A model generated the notes under the pieces. It searched no databases. It saw nothing but the letters and a program-made list of their open reading frames with translations, and had not been told where the DNA came from. Shown here one piece after another: positions 391 through 9,541 of a DNA stretch of 26,546 nt (the stretch's first letter is position 1; each line of letters starts with the position of its first letter). Both the position numbers and the translations under genes were made by a program. This DNA is from Candidatus Aerophobota bacterium (lineage in GTDB: Bacteria; Aerophobota; Aerophobia; Aerophobales; B3-G15). The stretch is from NCBI GenBank assembly GCA_014859225.1, contig JACUUP010000011.1, positions 1 through 26,546 on the forward strand. The letters run 5' to 3'.

Positions 391-1959
391 ATGTCATTAA
401 GCAAACCCAATGCAAGTCCAGCTACTTCAACAAAAAATAGAGTCAGTCCTTCTCCCTGCTCAGGGTTATGTGTAAGCTGCCTTGATGGATGCCCCGGCTA
501 CTGCGAAGTAGGACTTTCAGCTCTGCGGGGAAGGGAGGTTCTGTATCCTCAACCTTTTGGCAGAATAACCGCTGGTTCGGAAAAAGACTATCCGGTGGAT
601 TTTTCTCATCTCAACATCCAGGGAACCTGTGTGGGTGCTTATGGAGTGGAGCCAGATTCAGATAAAGCTATTTTTCCTGCGGTAGAAGTATCAACAAAAC
701 TGGGAAGTAAGAATAAAATTGGGTTAAGGGTCCCCTTTTTTACCGGGGCACTCGGCTCTACCGAAGTAGCCCGTATTCACTGGGAATCTATGGCTGTAGG
801 AGCGGCTATCAGCGGAACTATAATTACAATAGGTGAAAATGTCTGTGCTATGGACCCTGAAAGCGAAATTAAGAATGGTCGCATAATTCACTCTCCAGAA
901 ATGGAAAGAAGAGTCAAAGCCTTTAAGAGATGGCAGGATAAAGATGGAGAGATTATAGTTCAGTGCAATGTAGAAGATAAAAGACTCGGAGTTCCTGAGT
1001 ATGTTATTGAAAAATTGGGAGTAGAAGCAGTTGAAATTAAATGGGGACAGGGAGCCAAGAGTATAGGAGGGGAAGTGAAACTTGATAGCCTGCAAAGAGC
1101 TTTGGAATTAAAAAGAAAAGGCTACATTGTCATTCCCGACCCTGAGGATTTTGTTGTAAAAAAAGCTTTTCAGCAGGGTGATTTTAAAGAATTTGAGCGA
1201 CACTCCCGTCTGGGAATGATAGAGGAAGAGGAATTTTTCCGGGAAGTAGAAAGATTAAGAGGATTAGGAGCTAAATATGTCACCCTTAAGACGGGCTCTT
1301 ATCGTCCTGCGGACCTTGCCCGTGCTATTCGCTGTGCTTCTGATGTGGAAATTGACATTTTAACAGTGGATGGCTCGGGTGGAGGGACAGGAATGAGTCC
1401 CTGGCGCATGATGAATGAATGGGGAATTCCCACGGTTTACCTGGAATGTCTTATCTATAATTTTCTCTCTCAACTAAAAAGTAAAAACTCTTTCATTCCA
1501 GCCTGTGCTATAGCAGGTGGTATCTGTCTGGAAGACCAGGTTTTCAAAGCAATTGCTCTGGGAGCTCCTTTTATTAAGGCAGTTTGTTTAGGTCGCTCAA
1601 GTATGACTGCGGCTATGGTGGGTAATACTATTGAGAGGGCTATAAAAAAAGGAGAGGTTTCTCAGAGAATTAAAAAATATGGAAACACTGTGGAACAAAT
1701 TTTCATTGAAGCAGCAAGACTCAAAGAAAAATATGGAAAAGATTTTGAAAGGATTCCCGGTGGGGCTATTGGTTTGTATACCTACTATGAGAGAGTTAAA
1801 ACAGGTCTGCAGCAGCTTATGGCTGGAGCAAGAAAATTTAACCTGAAGCATATAAATAGGGACGACCTTTTTGCTCTCACCCGGGAAGCAGAAAGTATCT
1901 CAGGAATTCCTTTCATAATGAATGTAGATAAGGAAGAGGTGCAAAAAATTCTTGCTTGA
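391..1959 (+). CDS. FMN-binding glutamate synthase-like protein (GltB domain 2 family)
   Basis: This 522-residue protein covers only the FMN/2-oxoglutarate synthase domain of glutamate synthase (COG0069-like). The glutaminase domain and the C-terminal beta-helix of full GltB are absent. Family features seen are IKWGQGAKSIGG (about residues 219-230), TVDGSGGGTGMSPW (the phosphate-binding loop, about 325-340), and ACAIAGGICLEDQVFKAIALGA followed by VCLGRSSM (a TIM-barrel end). The usual GltB iron-sulfur motif with CPVGIATQD is missing. Instead there is an N-terminal cluster of five cysteines (C23, C27, C30, C34, C38) that could bind an iron-sulfur cluster. The start is set by AGGAGG at 380-385, 5 nt before the ATG. 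Such stand-alone proteins occur in archaea and anaerobes. True glutamate synthase activity, with ammonia or a partner glutaminase, is possible but unproven, and an amine-specific relative is the alternative. Confidence 0.85.
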   Translation: MSLSKPNASPATSTKNRVSPSPCSGLCVSCLDGCPGYCEVGLSALRGREVLYPQPFGRITAGSEKDYPVDFSHLNIQGTCVGAYGVEPDSDKAIFPAVEVSTKLGSKNKIGLRVPFFTGALGSTEVARIHWESMAVGAAISGTIITIGENVCAMDPESEIKNGRIIHSPEMERRVKAFKRWQDKDGEIIVQCNVEDKRLGVPEYVIEKLGVEAVEIKWGQGAKSIGGEVKLDSLQRALELKRKGYIVIPDPEDFVVKKAFQQGDFKEFERHSRLGMIEEEEFFREVERLRGLGAKYVTLKTGSYRPADLARAIRCASDVEIDILTVDGSGGGTGMSPWRMMNEWGIPTVYLECLIYNFLSQLKSKNSFIPACAIAGGICLEDQVFKAIALGAPFIKAVCLGRSSMTAAMVGNTIERAIKKGEVSQRIKKYGNTVEQIFIEAARLKEKYGKDFERIPGGAIGLYTYYERVKTGLQQLMAGARKFNLKHINRDDLFALTREAESISGIPFIMNVDKEEVQKILA

Positions 1960-2044
1960 GTGAGCGAGTTCAAAATTGAATATGTTGAAGAAAAATGATG
2001 GGGAATTTTTGACAATACCAGCCTTTTTGAAAGGAAGCTTTTTA

Positions 2045-2506
2045 ATGATAAGAGAGTTAGTGCAACAGGCACTTGATTTTTGTACGGAGAAAAATCCATA
2101 TCTGGAGGATAGACAAGCTGTTGTCGGTATGCTGCTAAAAGACGATAGCTGGACTCACAGTGTTTTCCGGTATGCCTTAGCTATTAGAATCTCTCAATAT
2201 CTGGGAGCACATTATCAAGAATTGAAACAGGTTTATCTTGTGGGAAGCACCCTGGAAAATAGAGCAAAATTTACCTCAGATATAGACCTTATCATAAGAG
2301 TTGAGAGTGATAGCAAGGCTGTGGTAAATACCTTAAGAAGAGTGGATAACGACATTATGATATATTATAGAAGTTTACTGGGAGATGAGGTAAAAAAAAT
2401 GTATAAAATTCTGGACCTTGAGTTTGTCTTTTTTGAGGAAGAGAAAAAGCTTAAAAAGATAAAGGGGTGGGTTTTCCATCCACCCCTTCTTGTCTGGCAC
2501 CAGTAG
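2045..2506 (+). CDS. Minimal nucleotidyltransferase (MNT) domain protein
   Basis: About 153 residues. The middle carries the polymerase-beta-type nucleotidyltransferase signature VGSTLENRAKFTSDIDLII: the GS loop followed by the DxD metal-binding pair. A later LDLEFVFF strand can supply the third carboxylate. The N-terminal half is helical with no recognised domain. I chose ATG 2045 because AAGGAAG (2030-2036) precedes it by 8 nt. An in-frame ATG at 1976 would add 23 residues without a clear ribosome binding site. The last codons (KGWVFHPPLLVWHQ) are encoded by a perfect 9-bp hairpin and end at a repeat fragment, so the native C-terminus may have been altered. MNT proteins include nucleotide-transferring antitoxins paired with HEPN toxins, but no HEPN gene is next to this one. 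The substrate is unknown. Confidence 0.65.
   Translation: MIRELVQQALDFCTEKNPYLEDRQAVVGMLLKDDSWTHSVFRYALAIRISQYLGAHYQELKQVYLVGSTLENRAKFTSDIDLIIRVESDSKAVVNTLRRVDNDIMIYYRSLLGDEVKKMYKILDLEFVFFEEEKKLKKIKGWVFHPPLLVWHQ
2462..2488 (+). other. Perfect 9-bp hairpin inside the 3' end of the nucleotidyltransferase gene
   Basis: AAGGGGTGG (2462-2470) pairs with CCACCCCTT (2480-2488) around a 9-nt loop. The bases after it (CTTGTCTGG) are only mildly T-rich, so it is a poor intrinsic terminator. It may be the remnant of a terminator or part of a palindromic repeat. It lies within the last coding codons and directly upstream of the repeat fragment at 2506-2526. Confidence 0.6.
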
Positions 2507-2577: not shown

Positions 2578-3660
2578 ATGGATAAGAGCGCTTTGCTCGT
2601 TCTGGAAGATGGGAAAGTTTTTAAAGGAAGAGCTTTTGGTGCAGATGGCGAGGTGGCAGGAGAGGTAGTTTTTAATACAAGTATGATGGGATACCAGGAA
2701 ATACTTACCGACCCTTCTTATAAAGGACAAATGGTTACCATGACCTACCCTCTAATAGGTAACTATGGTGTCAATGATGATGACTTTGAGTCAACAAAAC
2801 CCTGGGTAGAAGGATTTATTGTGAGAGAATACAGTAAATTCCATAGCAACTGGCGCGCTATAAACACTCTGGATGAATTTTTAAAAAAGCACAGCATTGT
2901 TGGGATAGAAGGAATTGACACACGCGCCCTGACAAGGCACATAAGATTGCAGGGCGCTATGAGGGGAGTTATATCCGCCTTAAACGAGGATATTGCAGGT
3001 CTGGTAGAAAAGGCGAGGAGTTGCCCCGGTGTTGTAGGACAGGACCTGGTAAAAGAAGTTAGCTGCAAAGATACCTGGTGGTGGGAAAAAGAGGGAAGAT
3101 ACAAAGTAGTTGTGGTAGACTGTGGAGTGAAGCATAATATTTTAAGAGAACTTGCCAGAAGAGATTGCAAAGTGCAGATTGTTCCAGCGAAAACAAATGC
3201 TGAAAGTATCCTTGAGCTTAAGCCTGATGGAGTTCTCTTCTCTAACGGTCCAGGTGACCCTTCCGCCATCCCTTATGTTGTCCAGACAGCAAGAAAGCTT
3301 GCAGGTAAACTTCCAATCTTTGGCATATGCCTTGGTCAGCAGGTTTTAGCACAAGCTATAGGAGGAAAAACTTACAAATTAAAATTTGGACATCATGGAG
3401 CAAATCATCCGGTAAAAGACGTAAGAGAAGATAAAATTTCCATCACCGTGCAAAACCACGGCTTTTGCGTGGATATTACCTCTTTGCCGGATGAAGTTGA
3501 GGTCACTCACATCAACCTTTACGATAACACTCTGGAAGGAATCGCCTATCCAGAGCTTTATCTTTTCTCCGTGCAGTTTCATCCCGAAGCATCACCCGGG
3601 CCCCACGATGCCACATATATCTTTCAACAATTTGTTGAGCTTATGAGAAAAAAAAGATAA
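2578..3660 (+). CDS. carA: Carbamoyl-phosphate synthase small subunit (glutaminase)
   Basis: CarA hydrolyses glutamine and channels ammonia to CarB to make carbamoyl phosphate for pyrimidines and arginine. The 360-residue protein has the CarA N-terminal domain (ALLVLEDGKVFKGRAFG, then NTSMMGYQEILTDPSY) and a class I amidotransferase domain. That domain carries SNGPGDPSAIP, the nucleophile loop GICLGQQ, and the His-Glu pair in VQFHPEASPGP. The frame is open upstream to 2467, but that extension crosses a hairpin and a repeat. ATG 2578 gives the family-typical start MDKSALLVLEDG, although its ribosome binding site is weak. The gene ends with TAA directly before the carB ATG, so the two are co-transcribed. 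Confidence 0.96.
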   Translation: MDKSALLVLEDGKVFKGRAFGADGEVAGEVVFNTSMMGYQEILTDPSYKGQMVTMTYPLIGNYGVNDDDFESTKPWVEGFIVREYSKFHSNWRAINTLDEFLKKHSIVGIEGIDTRALTRHIRLQGAMRGVISALNEDIAGLVEKARSCPGVVGQDLVKEVSCKDTWWWEKEGRYKVVVVDCGVKHNILRELARRDCKVQIVPAKTNAESILELKPDGVLFSNGPGDPSAIPYVVQTARKLAGKLPIFGICLGQQVLAQAIGGKTYKLKFGHHGANHPVKDVREDKISITVQNHGFCVDITSLPDEVEVTHINLYDNTLEGIAYPELYLFSVQFHPEASPGPHDATYIFQQFVELMRKKR

Positions 3661-5325
3661 ATGCCCAAAAGAAAAGACATAAAAAAGATATTAATTATAG
3701 GCTCTGGACCAATAATTATTTCACAGGCTTGCGAGTTTGACTACTCGGGAACTCAAGCCTGCAAAGCATTGAAGGAGGAAGGATACGAAGTAGTTTTAAT
3801 TAACAGTAATCCTGCCACTATTATGACTGACCCTGACATGTCAGATAAAACTTATGTAGAGCCTATAACACCTGAAGTCGTGGAAATTATAATCAAAAGG
3901 GAAAGACCACAGGCACTCCTTCCTACCCTGGGTGGTCAAACCGCTCTTAACATCGGAGCCACTTTATCTAAAAAAGGTGTTCTGGATAAGTTCGCTGTTG
4001 AAATGATAGGTGCTACCTATGAGGCGATAAACAAAGCAGAAGATAGAAAACTTTTCCGAGAGTGCATACAAAAAATAGGACTAAAAGTCCCAAAAAGTGA
4101 GCTTGCCTATAATATGAAGGAGGCAAAGGAGGTAGCAAAAAATCTGGGGTTCCCCCTTATAATCCGCCCCAGTTTTACCCTGGGAGGAACAGGGGGAGGA
4201 ATAGCCTATAATATAGATGAATTTGAGGAAATTGCCCCTCGGGGTCTGGAAAAGAGTTTAATAAACGAAATTCTAATTGAAGAATCAGTCATTGGCTGGA
4301 AAGAGTTCGAGCTTGAGGTAATGAGAGATAAAAAAGATAATGTAGTAATTATCTGTTCCATTGAGAATTTTGACCCTATGGGAATACATACCGGGGATAG
4401 CATAACCTGCGCACCTGCCCAGACTCTAACTGATAAAGAATACCAGGTGATGAGGGACGCTGCCATAAATATAATAAGGGAGATAGGGGTTGAGACCGGG
4501 GGCTCAAACATTCAGTTTGCGGTTAATCCAGAGGATGGAGAGATGGTGGTTATTGAGATGAATCCACGGGTATCAAGAAGTTCTGCTCTTGCATCAAAAG
4601 CCACGGGGTTTCCCATAGCAAAAATTGCGGCAAAGCTTGCTGTAGGCTATACCCTTGATGAGCTTCCCAACGATATTACCAGGGAAACTTTAGCTTGTTT
4701 TGAGCCTACAATTGATTACTGCGTGGTAAAAATACCCCGGTTTACCTTTGAGAAATTTCCCGGAGCTAATCCAACACTAACCACATCCATGAAGTCAGTG
4801 GGAGAAGCCATGGCAATTGGGAGAACCTTTAAGGAAGCGCTGCAAAAAGGGCTCAGGTCTTTAGAAATTGGGGTAGATGGACTTATTGACCCTCAGCCTG
4901 TTACAGAAGATGAGCTTATTCAAAAGCTAACCATCCCCAATGCCGAGAGGATATTTTATATAGGTTATGCCTTGAGAAGAGGAATGTCGGTGGAAAAAAT
5001 TAATGAGCTTACCAAAATAGATACCTGGTTTTTATACAATATAGAAGAGATTGTAGAAATGGAACAGAGACTTAAAAAATCAGCTATTGCAGATGCTAAC
5101 ATAAACGAGAAGCAGTTTATTTCTCTTTTGTGGGAAGCCAAACAACACGGGTTCTCTGATTCCCAGATAGCAAGACTTTTAAATAAACAGGAGATGGATA
5201 TACGCAGGATAAGAGAGGAGGCAAAAATAAAGCCGGTTTATAAACTTGTTGATACCTGTGCGGCGGAGTTTGAAGCCTACACTCCCTATTATTATTCCAC
5301 CTATGAGATGGAAGAGGAAGCTTGA
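3661..5325 (+). CDS. carB: Carbamoyl-phosphate synthase large subunit, N-terminal half only (split carB)
   Basis: This 554-residue protein matches only the first half of the usual CarB of about 1,070 residues. It opens with [24 protein letters not shown] and contains the first ATP-grasp domain, which makes carboxyphosphate ([12 protein letters not shown] at about 170, [18 protein letters not shown] at about 300). The oligomerisation domain follows, and the protein stops after [19 protein letters not shown], exactly at the known junction between halves. The second ATP-grasp domain, which phosphorylates carbamate, and the allosteric domain are absent here, and mnmG begins at the next base. Split carB genes are known, for example in Aquifex and methanogens. 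I infer that the C-terminal half is encoded elsewhere. Because the stop sits on a domain boundary, a sequencing frameshift is unlikely. Confidence 0.93.
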
Positions 5326-7212
5326 ATGAATATGTGGGTCTATCCTGAAACTTATGATGTCATTGTGGTTGGGGGAGGGCATGCGGGAATTGAAGCCAGT
5401 CTTGCTGCAGCAAGACTGGGTTGTAATACTCTTCTTATAACTATGAACCTTGATACAATTGGGCTTATGTCCTGCAATCCTGCGGTGGGGGGAGTGGGAA
5501 AAGGACACCTGGTAAAAGAAATTGATGCTCTGGGTGGCCAGATGGCAATCTCAGTAGATGCTACTGCCATGCAATACAGAACTCTCAATACAAAAAAAGG
5601 TGCAGCAGTAAGGTCTACCCGAGCTCAGGTCGATCGTCAGGCCTACCGATGGTATACGAAAAAGGTGTTGGAGAATCAGCCTGACTTACATCTTAAACAA
5701 GCAACCGTAGAAAAACTTTTAGTGGAAAATGGCAAAGCTGTAGGAGTCAAAACGAATTTAGATGAGACATACGGGGGCAAATGTTTGGTCATAACTCCAG
5801 GGACCTTTCTTAACGGTCTTATCCACATCGGGCTAACCAGCTTCCCTGGGGGAAGGATTGCTGATTTTCCCTCCAAGGAGCTTCCCCAGAGTATGAGAGA
5901 TTTAGGATTCAGGATGGGTAGATTTAAAACCGGAACCTGTCCTCGGGTTGACGGCAAAAGTTTAAATTTTTCCAAACTGCAAATTCAGGAAGGCGAAATA
6001 AATGCCTCTGCCTTCTCTTTTTCCAGTAAAAAGGTAGAAATTAAGCAGATTCCCTGTTATATTACCTACACAAATCCAAAAACTCACAGAATAATCCAGA
6101 AAAATCTTGACCGTTCTCCCCTTTACAGCGGGATTATCAAATCTACAGGTGTTAGATACTGTCCTTCTGTTGAAGATAAGGTGGTGAAGTTTCCAAAGAA
6201 AGAAAGACACCAGATATTTTTAGAGCCTGAAGGAAGAGAGACTTTTGAATTTTATCCCAATGGTTTATCAACAAGCCTGCCCACAGATGTTCAAATGGAA
6301 CTTTTACACAGTATAGAAGGTCTGGAAAATGCTCACATACTAAGGCCAGGCTACGGAATAGAGCATGACTATGTAGACCCCACTGAGTTAAAACCAAGCT
6401 TAGAGACGAAAATGGTGGAAAATCTTTTTTTTGCCGGCCAGATAAATGGGACAACAGGATACGAGGAAGCAGCTGCCCAGGGTCTTGTAGCCGGTATTAA
6501 TGCTGCGCTTAAGGTAAAACAAAAACTCCCTCTTGTAATTGATAGGTCTCAAGCCTATATCGGAGTTCTCATAGATGACCTTGTGACAAAAGGAACAAAC
6601 GAGCCCTACAGAATGTTTACCTCCAGAGTGGAGTATCGCCTTATTTTAAGGGAGGATAATGCAGATATTAGACTCTCTAAACTTGGATATGAAATAGGTC
6701 TTATTTCAAAGGAGCGTTATCAGGAGCTGAAGGAAAGAGTGGAGGCTATTAAAAAAGAGACAAAAAAACTTGCCTCAACCAGAATTTTTCCTACTCCCGA
6801 GATAAACGATAGCCTCCTTAAACTTAAATCAACTCCTATTAAATCCCCCTGCTCTTTAAAAGAAATACTGAAGCGTCCTGAGATTCACCATAAGGATTTA
6901 AAAATTCTCCATGAATCCCTTCAAGAAATTGATGAGAAAGTATCTGGTGGGGTGGAAATTGAGGTTAAATATGAGGGCTACATTAAAAGACAAAATCTTG
7001 AGATAGAAAAATTCAAAAGGATGGAAAATGAGAAAATCCCTCCTGATTTTGACTTTGAAACTGTTCCGGGACTTTCAAGGGAGGTTAAAGAAAAGCTATC
7101 TAAGATAAGACCAACTTCCTTAGGTCAGGCTCTTAGAATTTCTGGAGTTACCCCGGCTGCCCTTTCTATATTGATGATCTGGCTAAAGAGAAAAGGCAGA
7201 GAAGCGGGTTAG
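5326..7212 (+). CDS. mnmG: tRNA uridine-5-carboxymethylaminomethyl modification enzyme MnmG (GidA)
   Basis: MnmG, with MnmE, adds the carboxymethylaminomethyl group to wobble uridine 34 of several tRNAs, using FAD and methylene-tetrahydrofolate. The 628-residue length is normal. The N-terminus has the FAD-binding loop [12 protein letters not shown] (residues 14-25), followed by [24 protein letters not shown] and [20 protein letters not shown]. Further family motifs are [19 protein letters not shown] and [22 protein letters not shown]. The C-terminal helical domain, which contacts tRNA and MnmE, ends in [11 protein letters not shown] and [15 protein letters not shown]. The ATG follows the carB stop with no gap, and an ATG two codons later is an alternative start. 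MnmE is not in the window. Confidence 0.97.
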
Positions 7213-7226
7213 TTTGAAAATAAAAT

Positions 7227-7583
7227 TTATTCTTTCGTGCCCAGATGCGCCTTTATGTATGTCAAAACTCTCCTGAGATTCTCTTCCGGGCTAAGATTTA
7301 CATCCGTTATTTCGTCTGCTTTAATTCTCTGTCCAATATGCATATGTCGTGGATAGGAAATTATATTTTTATGGTGGGGGGCCGTGTTAATTCTAATTGA
7401 TTCCACCTTTTTTTGCCAATGAAATGAATATTTTTTACCTGTTGGATGATAATATACATCAAGCAAGGAACCATCTATTAAGTATATTCGCAACTTCATC
7501 CCTGTAATAGCAGGTTTTGTTTTCAAAATATCAGAAAACTCTTCTTCTGTAAGGTGAAGAATTTTTTCAAAAGTTTCTCTCAT
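7227..7583 (-). CDS. TumE-family (DUF6516-like) toxin candidate
   Basis: This 118-residue basic protein resembles the TumE/DUF6516 family, annotated as the toxin of small toxin-antitoxin modules. It has a beta-strand with DGSLLDVYYHPTGKKYSFHW (about residues 37-56). This is followed by RINTAPHH (64-71) and YPRHMHIG (77-84), which correspond to the family's conserved R-x-D-x-APHH and FPHHKH-type segments. Here asparagine replaces the usual aspartate (RIN rather than RYD). The ATG overlaps the stop of the upstream partner gene by 4 nt (ATGA), so translation is probably coupled. It is an isolated - strand pair between + strand housekeeping genes, which fits a transferable module. The family match is from memory of its motifs, and toxicity is inferred. 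Confidence 0.65.
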   Translation of the reverse strand: MRETFEKILHLTEEEFSDILKTKPAITGMKLRIYLIDGSLLDVYYHPTGKKYSFHWQKKVESIRINTAPHHKNIISYPRHMHIGQRIKADEITDVNLSPEENLRRVLTYIKAHLGTKE

Positions 7584-7837
7584 AGTTTTTGTAATGCCAA
7601 AGTCAGTTTTTTTCTTAACCGAAGGACTCCAGCTTCATAACCTGCTGCTTCCAAAAAATCCTCATAGGCAGGATGCTCATCTATCTCGCCTGATTCAATT
7701 AGCTTTTCTATTTCGTCAGATTTTTCTACCTGATAACGTGAAAGAATTTCATTCAATGCAGCTTTAAAATGAAATAATCTATGCACCAGAGTATCAAGTT
7801 CAATCTCCTTTTGTTCAAGTTCAATTAAATCTTCCAC
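7580..7837 (-). CDS. Small helical partner of the TumE-like protein, antitoxin candidate
   Basis: This 85-residue, acidic, almost wholly helical protein (EDLIELEQKEIELDTL at the start, then several charged heptad-like stretches) matches no domain I recognise. I start it at GTG 7837 because AAGGGGG precedes it by 5 nt and because a promoter at 7875-7903 places the transcript start near 7868. A longer reading to 7918 would begin upstream of that promoter. It overlaps the TumE-like gene by 4 nt. Gene order (small acidic protein first, basic toxin-like protein second), coupling and palindromes in the control region suggest an antitoxin. It shows no helix-turn-helix that I can see, so whether it binds DNA is open. 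Confidence 0.6.
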   Translation of the reverse strand: MEDLIELEQKEIELDTLVHRLFHFKAALNEILSRYQVEKSDEIEKLIESGEIDEHPAYEDFLEAAGYEAGVLRLRKKLTLALQKL

Positions 7838-7846
7838 TTCTACCCC

Positions 7847-7879
7847 CTTATTTGAATAAGTATAATTATGGGAAATTAT
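7847..7879 (-). promoter_or_regulatory. Palindromes at the toxin-antitoxin promoter, operator candidates
   Basis: Two perfect palindromes lie between the -10 box and the GTG start. They are CTTATT-TG-AATAAG (7847-7860) and ATAATT-N6-AATTAT (7862-7879), the latter overlapping the -10 hexamer. Toxin-antitoxin complexes commonly repress their own promoter through such sites. Function here is inferred, and AT-rich palindromes can arise by chance. Confidence 0.4.
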
Positions 7880-7903
7880 ATAAGAAAAAGATAAGAAAGG
7901 CAA
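7875..7903 (-). promoter_or_regulatory. Sigma70-type promoter of the TumE-like pair
   Basis: On the - strand, TTGCCT (7898-7903) and a perfect TATAAT (7875-7880) are separated by 17 nt. Transcription would begin near 7868, giving a leader of about 30 nt before the GTG at 7837. Confidence 0.65.
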
Positions 7904-7964
7904 GCGCAAAAAGAGCAAAGTGCAGGGTCTATTACTCTGTGCTTAGACAGTTTAATTGCTTTGT

Positions 7965-7992
7965 TTGACATAAATAACTCTCCTAATATAAT
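7965..7992 (+). promoter_or_regulatory. Strong sigma70-type promoter for the QueG-like/hisHF/guaA genes
   Basis: Perfect consensus hexamers TTGACA (7965-7970) and TATAAT (7987-7992) are spaced by 16 nt. The next + strand gene starts at 8178, so the transcript would have a leader of about 180 nt that contains the whole composite repeat at 8010-8159. Confidence 0.75.
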
Positions 7993-8009
7993 GCAGTGAA
8001 GAGCGGCTC

Positions 8010-8159
8010 TTACGATAAAAAGTATGATGGTAGCCACAAGGCTTGAGTATAATCCATCGTAGGACAGGCGTCTCGCCTGTCATTGTAAACCCAGGTAGCC
8101 GCAAGGCTTGAGAGCCTGTACAGATGGTCCCTTCATTTCACCTATATTTCTTATCGTAA
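8010..8159. repeat. Composite palindromic repeat element
   Basis: The gene-poor stretch 7838-8177 holds, besides the two promoters, a 150-bp structured block. Its ends are a perfect 9-bp inverted repeat, TTACGATAA (8010-8018) and TTATCGTAA (8151-8159). Inside are two direct copies of GGTAGCCRCAAGGCTTGAG (8029-8047 and 8094-8112, one mismatch). Between them is an 8-bp hairpin, GACAGGCG-TCT-CGCCTGTC (8063-8081). No open reading frame is supported. It looks like a non-autonomous dispersed repeat, but copy number in the genome is unknown. Confidence 0.6.
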
Positions 8160-8177
8160 CAGTCTGGAGGACTTACT

Positions 8178-8849
8178 ATGGAGCAGGATAATTACAATCA
8201 ATTAAAGGATAGAGCTCTTGGGTGGGGCATCTCGCTTTTTGGTGTGGCTTCTTTAGACAATTTAAAACAAAACATAGCAGGAATCTTGCCTGAAACCTTA
8301 CAGGACCTTTTTTTTGCAGTATCGCTGGGTGTTAGGTTATCTGATAAAATAATTGATGATATTAAAGGTAAGCCCACTCAGCTTTACCTGCACCACTACC
8401 GCCAGGTAAACTACCTTCTGGATAAAGTAGCTTTTCTCATTTCAAACTTTATTCAGGAACAGGGCTACCAGGCTCTTCCCATAGCAGCCTCTCAGGTGAT
8501 AGACTGGCAAAACCAGAAGGGTCATCTTTCCCATAAACATGTTGCCTGTGAGGCAGGACTTGGATGGATGGGAAAAAACAACCTCCTTGTCACTCCGAAA
8601 TGGGGAGCACGAGTAAGACTTGTAAGTATCCTCACCAATTTTCCTTTAGTCGTGGATAAAAAACTAAATGTTAACTGTGGCAGTTGCAAAAGATGTCTTA
8701 CGGTGTGTCCTGCTGGAGCAATAAGGGAAAAAAGGGAGGATTTTGACCATCTTGCCTGCTTTGAGCAGTTAAAACAATTTAAAAGAGAGTACAATATAGC
8801 TCACTATATTTGTGGCATCTGTGTAAAATCCTGCCGCCCGCTTAATTGA
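8178..8849 (+). CDS. Small QueG-related protein with two 4Fe-4S clusters
   Basis: This 223-residue cytosolic protein belongs to the epoxyqueuosine reductase-related group (COG1600-like) but is much shorter than QueG (over 300 residues). The N-terminal part has ALPIAASQVIDW and the motif SHKHVACEAGLGWMGKNNLLVTP (about residues 118-140), shared with QueG-type proteins. The C-terminus carries CGSCKRCLTVCPAGAI (C167, C170, C173, C177) and a second set with C194, C212, C215 and C219, enough for two 4Fe-4S clusters. The HEAT-like C-terminal domain of QueG that contacts tRNA is missing, so activity on queuosine tRNA is doubtful. The substrate is unknown. The start has GGAGG (8166-8170) 7 nt upstream. 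The gene is first in the transcript that continues into hisH. Confidence 0.75.
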   Translation: MEQDNYNQLKDRALGWGISLFGVASLDNLKQNIAGILPETLQDLFFAVSLGVRLSDKIIDDIKGKPTQLYLHHYRQVNYLLDKVAFLISNFIQEQGYQALPIAASQVIDWQNQKGHLSHKHVACEAGLGWMGKNNLLVTPKWGARVRLVSILTNFPLVVDKKLNVNCGSCKRCLTVCPAGAIREKREDFDHLACFEQLKQFKREYNIAHYICGICVKSCRPLN

Positions 8850-8905
8850 AATTTGAAGAAAAAAATATAAAATATAACCTTCAAGGGACGATAGATAAAA
8901 AATTA

Positions 8906-9541
8906 ATGAAAAGAATAAGTCCTACAATAGTTGTGATTGATTATGAAATGGGCAACCTTTTAAGTGTGCAAAAAGCCCTGCAAAAGATAGGTTGTCGGGT
9001 AAAGGTCACAGACAATCCTTCAGCAATTGAAAAAGCTACAGGGCTTGTTTTACCCGGAGTTGGCTCATTCAGGGATTGCATGACTAATCTTTCCAGAAAA
9101 GGTCTGGTGGATGCGGTATATAAGTTCATCCACTCAGGACATCCCTTCCTGGGAATATGTCTGGGGATGCAGATTTTATTTACAGAAAGCGAGGAGTTTG
9201 GCCGAAGTAGTGGTCTTGATATATTAAAGGGGAAGGTTGTCCCTTTTTGCAAAAAATCGGGATTGAAGGTTCCCCATGTAGGGTGGAACAGTATAAAAAT
9301 AAGAAGAGGAGCGCCTGCCTTAAAAGATATTCCTGATAACTCTTACTTTTATTTTGTCCACTCCTACTATGTGCTTCCGGAAGATAAAGATATCATCGCA
9401 ACTACAACTGAATACGGGGAAGAGTTTGTATCAAGCGTGTGGAAAGATAATGTATTTGCCTGTCAATTCCACCCGGAAAAATCCCAGAGGTTAGGTCTTG
9501 CTTTATTGAAAAATTTTAAAGAGACGGTTTATGCTGGCTAA
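8906..9541 (+). CDS. hisH: Imidazole glycerol phosphate synthase, glutaminase subunit HisH
   Basis: HisH releases ammonia from glutamine and passes it through the HisF barrel, where PRFAR becomes imidazole-glycerol phosphate and AICAR. With ATG 8906 the protein is 211 residues, the normal length. It starts [21 protein letters not shown], keeping the family's IDYxMGN. The catalytic triad is visible: C85 in GICLGMQ, and H189 and E191 in CQFHPEKS. The oxyanion strand PGVGSF is present. The frame is open to a TTG at 8846 that overlaps the preceding stop, but that extension has no family similarity. The ribosome binding site for ATG 8906 is weak. The gene overlaps hisF by 11 nt. No other histidine genes are in the window. 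Confidence 0.94.

Follow-up and report, generated by a model that had tools for sequence, protein, structure and literature searches.

The window analyzed here is a whole 26,546-nucleotide stretch of DNA from a Candidatus Aerophobota bacterium, contig C257 of genome G000 (a 1.8-Mb assembly, a MAG in 273 contigs, 91% complete). It carries carA, then a carB gene that encodes only the N-terminal half of the protein (N-half), and then mnmG. CarAB (CPS) performs the first step of pyrimidine and arginine synthesis; CPS is made of two duplicated halves that are fused and joined by an internal carbamate tunnel. The genes of the locus are the following.

391..1959, + strand: gltB-like (glutamate-synthase-like) gene; ORF, 80% identical to the carA neighbor in G016 contig C124 (L141); named by eye
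1976..2506, + strand: small nucleotidyltransferase-like gene between the gltB-like gene and carA; ORF, order as in G016 C124; named by eye
2578..3660, + strand: carA, glutaminase subunit; Pfam/NCBIfam, catalytic Cys, His, and Glu present (GICLGQQ ... FHPEA)
3661..5325, + strand: carB(N), carboxyphosphate/carbamate-forming ATP-grasp and oligomerisation domain only, 554 aa; ORF, Pfam/NCBIfam, E. coli alignment
5326..7212, + strand: mnmG; Pfam GIDA, position common to G001, G002, and G006
8846..9541, + strand: hisH-like gene that opens the shared right flank hisH-hisF; ORF maps of the window and L049; named by eye

The carB(N) reading frame starts with ATG and stops with TGA at 5323-5325, and the mnmG ATG occupies the next base, 5326. 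Pfam matches are limited to CPSase_L_D1, D2, and D3 (oligomerisation), all of which end by residue 506. The NCBIfam model PRK05294.1 is matched over positions 1-545 of 1058, and the alignment with E. coli CarB runs end to end over its residues 1-552. The cut falls between the two synthetase halves, in the linker that joins them. The equivalents of E. coli R129, R169, E215, H243, Q285, E299, N301, and R303 were checked by position and are all kept, and the glutaminase triad of the neighboring CarA is intact. The nearest named record is that of Candidatus Aerophobetes AUK192, with 82% identity over the half. A local tblastn of 5200-9000 with four C-terminal halves (C-halves) as queries detected no remnant of a C-half. 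The description given in an earlier note on this DNA, namely, an N-half next to carA that ends at residue 554 after the oligomerisation domain, with mnmG at the next base and the C-half absent from the window, is thus borne out on every point by the reading frames, the domain matches, the E. coli alignment, and the tblastn search.

Relatives and the origin of the split

The same carA-carB(N)-mnmG junction is found in two genomes of the same family (G001 and G002) and in a third of the same order (G006), with N-halves of 552-559 aa. The comparison with relatives proposed in the earlier note therefore excludes chance or misassembly, and a frameshift or assembly error at 5320-5330 is rejected. 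In these three relatives, a free C-half of 517-532 aa is encoded 3' of pyrR-pyrB-pyrC, convergent with an NDK-like gene; the C-half locus of G005 has the same organization. Full-length carB genes occur in two settings. In locus P, represented by G004 and G008, the order is pyrRBC-carA-carB (the G004 stretch that was read covers only pyrC and the end of pyrB). Locus Q denotes the gltB-linked carAB neighborhood, for which the gltB-like gene at 391..1959 is the marker. In G016, this locus is the neighborhood of the window but with a full carB: contig C124 carries the gltB-like and nucleotidyltransferase-like genes, carA, and carB, and on contig C55, hisH-hisF lies directly 3' of carB. In the window, mnmG occupies the slot that is held by the C-half in the gltB-linked locus of G016.

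These two gltB-locus carB copies (L141 on C124 and L049 on C55) are 92% identical and lie in a single f6 bin. This bin is probably contaminated by two related strains, with C124 and C55 foreign to it, because another CarB in the bin is of the kind usual for the f6 family to which the bin belongs. Five other f6 genomes (G010, G011, G015, G014, and G007; L031 and L033-L036) encode a full-length carB with no carA homologue at E 1e-20. The gene immediately before carB in L033 and L035 is pyrC; the carB of L031 lies near a glutamate-dehydrogenase-like gene (named by eye). By gene content, the CPSs of these five genomes appear to lack a glutaminase.

The free C-halves group with the carB of locus P with a support of 100, and their grouping with locus Q is rejected (AU p 0.001). 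The N-halves group with locus Q; for the N-half alone, the alternative grouping with P is not rejected (p 0.36), but for CarA and the N-half together it is (p 0.032). Furthermore, in comparisons of the split enzymes with P, N-half identity is 4-8.5 points below C-half identity, and between full-length pairs it is on average 3.3 points above. Taken together, the C-half trees, the combined CarA and N-half test, and the identity offsets indicate that the split CPS of these Aerophobota most likely unites halves of two carB genes, its N-half coming from a gene that lost the C-half and its C-half from a gene that lost the N-half. Simple fission of a single carB is accordingly disfavored by the C-half and CarA plus N-half tests, if not by the N-half alone.

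The C-half and a second CarB in the genome of the window

The genome of the window retains pyrR-pyrB-pyrC and the NDK-like gene, with pyrC intact, but only 19 bases separate pyrC from the convergent NDK-like gene, with no C-half between them. On this gene order, the free C-half gene is deleted from its pyr-operon site. A query of the whole genome with a C-half yielded no free C-half either (9% of the genome may be missing). A separate CPS.B gene, present in G001, G002, G005, and G006, was thus not found in this 91% complete assembly, even though the other parts of a split CPS are there: a CPS.A encoded by its own gene that stops after the oligomerisation domain, and a separate glutaminase with an intact triad. 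Apart from the N-half itself, the sole strong match was on contig C171, within a complete CarB of 1082 aa (CarB'). The expectation of the earlier note that the C-half is encoded elsewhere holds for the sister genomes, where it is a separate pyr-operon gene; in G000 that gene is gone, and a genome-wide search leads instead to the C-half inside CarB'. The complete carB that the note had set against its own reading does exist, as a distinct gene that shares 63% identity with carB(N) over the N-half. Its alternative suggestion, a carbamate kinase-like enzyme in place of the C-half, finds no support, as all matches to TIGR00746 in G000 are below the family cut-off. Consumers of carbamoyl phosphate are encoded in this genome, with pyrB on C263 and an ornithine carbamoyltransferase on C151.

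CarB' adjoins a second glutaminase-like gene, CarA'; the two are separate genes rather than a single fused glutaminase-synthetase chain. In CarA', the catalytic Cys is replaced by Ser (GISSGNL versus GICLGQQ), His by Ile, and Glu by Gly (VQYIPGD versus VQFHPEA). With the triad lost, CarA' lacks the residues for glutamine hydrolysis (hereafter, "dead"). CarB', by contrast with its partner, has both ATP-grasp sites intact and keeps all the N-half catalytic residues checked. The Ser in place of the catalytic Cys resembles Ser294 of human CPS1 (PMC4655335), and by this analogy use of ammonia would be implied. In contrast to vertebrate CPS I, CarA' and CarB' are separate bacterial chains, and the His and Glu are lost as well. 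E. coli CarB is a closer solved relative than human CPS1. The pair is likened to CPS I and not classed with it.

For a RecB-like neighbor gene on C171, an 8-kb contig, 16 other Aerophobota genomes contain no relative, an observation that counts toward foreign contamination. Nevertheless, the tetranucleotide distances among contigs of this genome span a range that includes that of C171, and a CarA'-CarB' homologue is present in G006, which belongs to another family of the same order; contamination is thus disfavored. The CarB' gene of G006 (L044:2454-5693, C78) contains an in-frame TGA at codon 574, within a conserved motif (GPNRI-QGIEFDY) where the C-half begins; besides this gene, G006 has a complete split CPS.

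Lone N-halves and apparently exchanged halves in other bacteria

The survey comprised 173 genomes, all at least 95% complete apart from G000, of which 131 had a CarB match. Wherever the N-half frame was short, the genome was examined for C-halves; the triad was subsequently inspected in the sample's CarA genes. CarB is split in about 10 of the 131. Five genomes (G020, G063, G134, G135, and G144) have the ordinary split with a free C-half, and in five (G000, G074, G109, G114, and G119) a lone N-half lies next to an active carA with no free C-half. The latter represent five different families; the four besides G000 are outside Aerophobota and 96-98% complete. No C-half remnants were found 3' of the lone N-halves. 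All five also carry a CarB with an intact C-half, so that a lone N-half is never the sole CarB in the sample, and in all five a full CarB lies next to a dead CarA' (the CarB' genes of G109 and G119 are cut by contig ends, and the remainder was read on the next contig). Dead CarA' is otherwise present in 5 of the 126 other CarB genomes (G184, G052, G072, G038, and G173), a difference with a Fisher p of 8e-7 in a test that ignores kinship and was posed after the first cases had been seen. The CarB' proteins of G052, G074, G109, and G184 are ∼80-83% identical to that of G184 across both halves, and in G184, CarA'-CarB' is apparently the only CPS.

Some of the dead glutaminases have other contexts. 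In G072 (L231:1200-10350), carA-carB and dead carA'-carB' lie in tandem on one contig, each CPS gene pair being complete, with one glutaminase devoid of its Cys and His. In G038 and G173 (L275 and L321), which are outside the CarB' clade studied, the sole CarA found lacks the catalytic Cys and His, and these may possibly be further ammonia-type bacterial CPSs. Separately, the CarB frames of G180 and G070 (L333 and L334) are 941-947 aa long, and the C-half match stops early, as if the MGS-like regulatory domain were missing.

Three cases bear on the exchange of halves. In G114, the partner CarB has an intact C-half and a diverged N-half without the equivalents of Q285, E299, and N301, residues that bind metal at the first ATP site of the E. 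coli enzyme; the lone N-half would be a natural replacement for this damaged N-half, although G114 also has a third CarB. An Omnitrophota contig (L060) carries carA, carB(N), and a free C-half that is 77-85% identical to the C-halves of CarB'. Its N-half shows 58-60% identity to the N-halves of CarB' and 75% to the lone N-half of G109. The trees agree with these identities: grouping of the N-half with CarB' is disfavored (p 0.066), and grouping of the C-half with the Aerophobota P group is rejected (p 0.0007). Because the C-half is close to CarB' and the N-half is not, the free C-half is, as judged from these comparisons, derived from CarB' and has become the partner of a lone N-half. The reverse is seen in G111 (L159:469-3711, C141), where the N-half of a full carB is 71-72% identical to lone N-halves; compared with Aerophobota f6, its C-half is 79-81% identical and its N-half only 55%. 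On these identities, this carB joins the halves of two different carB genes in a natural fusion.

A proposed half-plus-whole CPS and its alternatives

Under the explanation that fits these observations best, the active CarA and carB(N) of the window would use glutamine, bicarbonate, and ATP to produce carbamate, which the C-half of CarB' would phosphorylate in trans. Nitrogen could then enter CarB' in two forms, as ammonia at its own N-half and as glutamine by way of the lone module. As for the history, the gltB-linked locus would have lost its C-half and the pyr locus its carA and N-half, yielding a hybrid enzyme whose free C-half was later replaced by that of CarB'. We give about an even chance to the claim that the lone CarA-carB(N) works in trans with the CarB' C-half after such complementary losses from two carAB loci; the partnership is one that we infer from sequence, and G114 and L060 point to a working one. 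The broader proposition, that a half-plus-whole CPS with two nitrogen entries is recurrent and that CarB halves are exchangeable modules across bacterial lineages, is plausible at slightly less than even chance. As part of this proposition, the intermediates could run from two full enzymes to half plus whole, then to a whole with a dead N-half (G114), and then to a free C-half of CarB' ancestry (L060). CarB' might, however, be an independent ammonia-using CPS, given the site retained in its own N-half and the apparent dependence of G184 on CarA'-CarB' alone; in that case, it may form carbamoyl phosphate unaided, and no pairing with the lone half would be required.

Several known systems are relevant to these readings. 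According to the review PMC6022934, which cites Ahuja et al. 2001, the split CPS of Aquifex aeolicus consists of separate CPS.A, CPS.B, and GLN, and isolated CPS.A and CPS.B catalyze both ATP-dependent partial reactions; the same review cites Popa et al. 2012 for a 41-kDa CPS of Methanobrevibacter smithii that functions as a dimer of one half. The likening of the split carB to Aquifex in the earlier note stands, in that CarB is divided between the two synthetase halves and accompanied by a separate active glutaminase; G001, G002, and G006 resemble this arrangement. Unlike Aquifex, G000 has no detectable free CPS.B, its only C-half being part of another CarB that is complete and whose CarA' is dead, and the Aerophobota halves appear to be derived from two different carB genes. 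M. smithii offers a precedent for one synthetase half that performs the whole reaction as a dimer, but the half in the window is 554 aa long with an oligomerisation domain and has a dedicated active CarA; moreover, a complete CarB' is encoded in the same genome, so that, in contrast to a minimal dimeric CPS, the single half is not the only CPS of the cell. With E. coli CarAB, the window shares an N-half equivalent to CarB 1-552 with its catalytic residues kept; in E. coli, however, CarB is one complete chain.

The abilities of the isolated Aquifex halves and the dimeric M. smithii enzyme (PMC6022934), together with the strong conservation of the N-half, would suit a reading in which CarA-carB(N) suffices as a small CPS that lacks the regulatory C-terminal domain: two N-halves, as the earlier note also suggested, would pair, and one of them would act as the carbamate kinase. 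We consider this compatible with the sequence but unlikely, given that all five lone N-halves coexist with a CarB whose C-half is intact and that sister genomes retain a separate gene for the free C-half. That the C-half merely moved and is missing from a 91% complete MAG in 273 contigs, leaving an ordinary Aquifex-type split, agrees with its presence in four relatives; this is distinctly improbable, since the conserved site is assembled and closed to 19 bases, the genome-wide query did not find it elsewhere in G000, and the free C-half is likewise absent from G074, G109, G114, and G119 at 96-98% completeness.

CarA-carB(N) might also be a relic in the course of loss, CarB' and free ammonia having taken over and the C-half having been the first to go. 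The apparently self-sufficient dead-CarA CPS of G184 and the f6 Aerophobota carB genes without a detectable carA are in keeping with this, as is a marginal excess of changes in carA plus carB(N) on the G000 branch with G006 as the outgroup (p 0.053). Yet the catalytic residues are intact; dN/dS of carB(N) in the G000 comparisons is ∼0.04, the estimates for carB(N) being the lowest of the seven genes compared, with synonymous sites near saturation; and relative-rate tests detected no significant acceleration of carB(N). Relaxed selection on carB(N) is rejected on these tests, read with that saturation in mind, and the lone module persists in four genomes outside the phylum, which leaves a relic as improbable as a moved C-half, or slightly more so. 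An artefact of assembly or binning, be it a frameshift at the junction or a C171 from another organism, draws on the fragmentation of the MAG and the shortness of C171; it is scarcely credible against the same organization of the junction in three relatives, a CarA'-CarB' in G006, and the tetranucleotide composition of C171.

Split CPS itself is already known. For a half that lacks its own partner and recurs, in five genomes of five families, together with a complete CarB whose glutaminase subunit is dead, the open literature searched yielded no description. If the missing half is indeed supplied by the other, full-length copy, a tunnel between separately encoded halves of different ancestry becomes testable. 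The sampled genomes would, in addition, appear to capture a central enzyme at several points on the way to replacing one partner by another, and the bacterial CPSs with a dead glutaminase resemble the step taken in vertebrates from a glutamine-using to an ammonia-using CPS.
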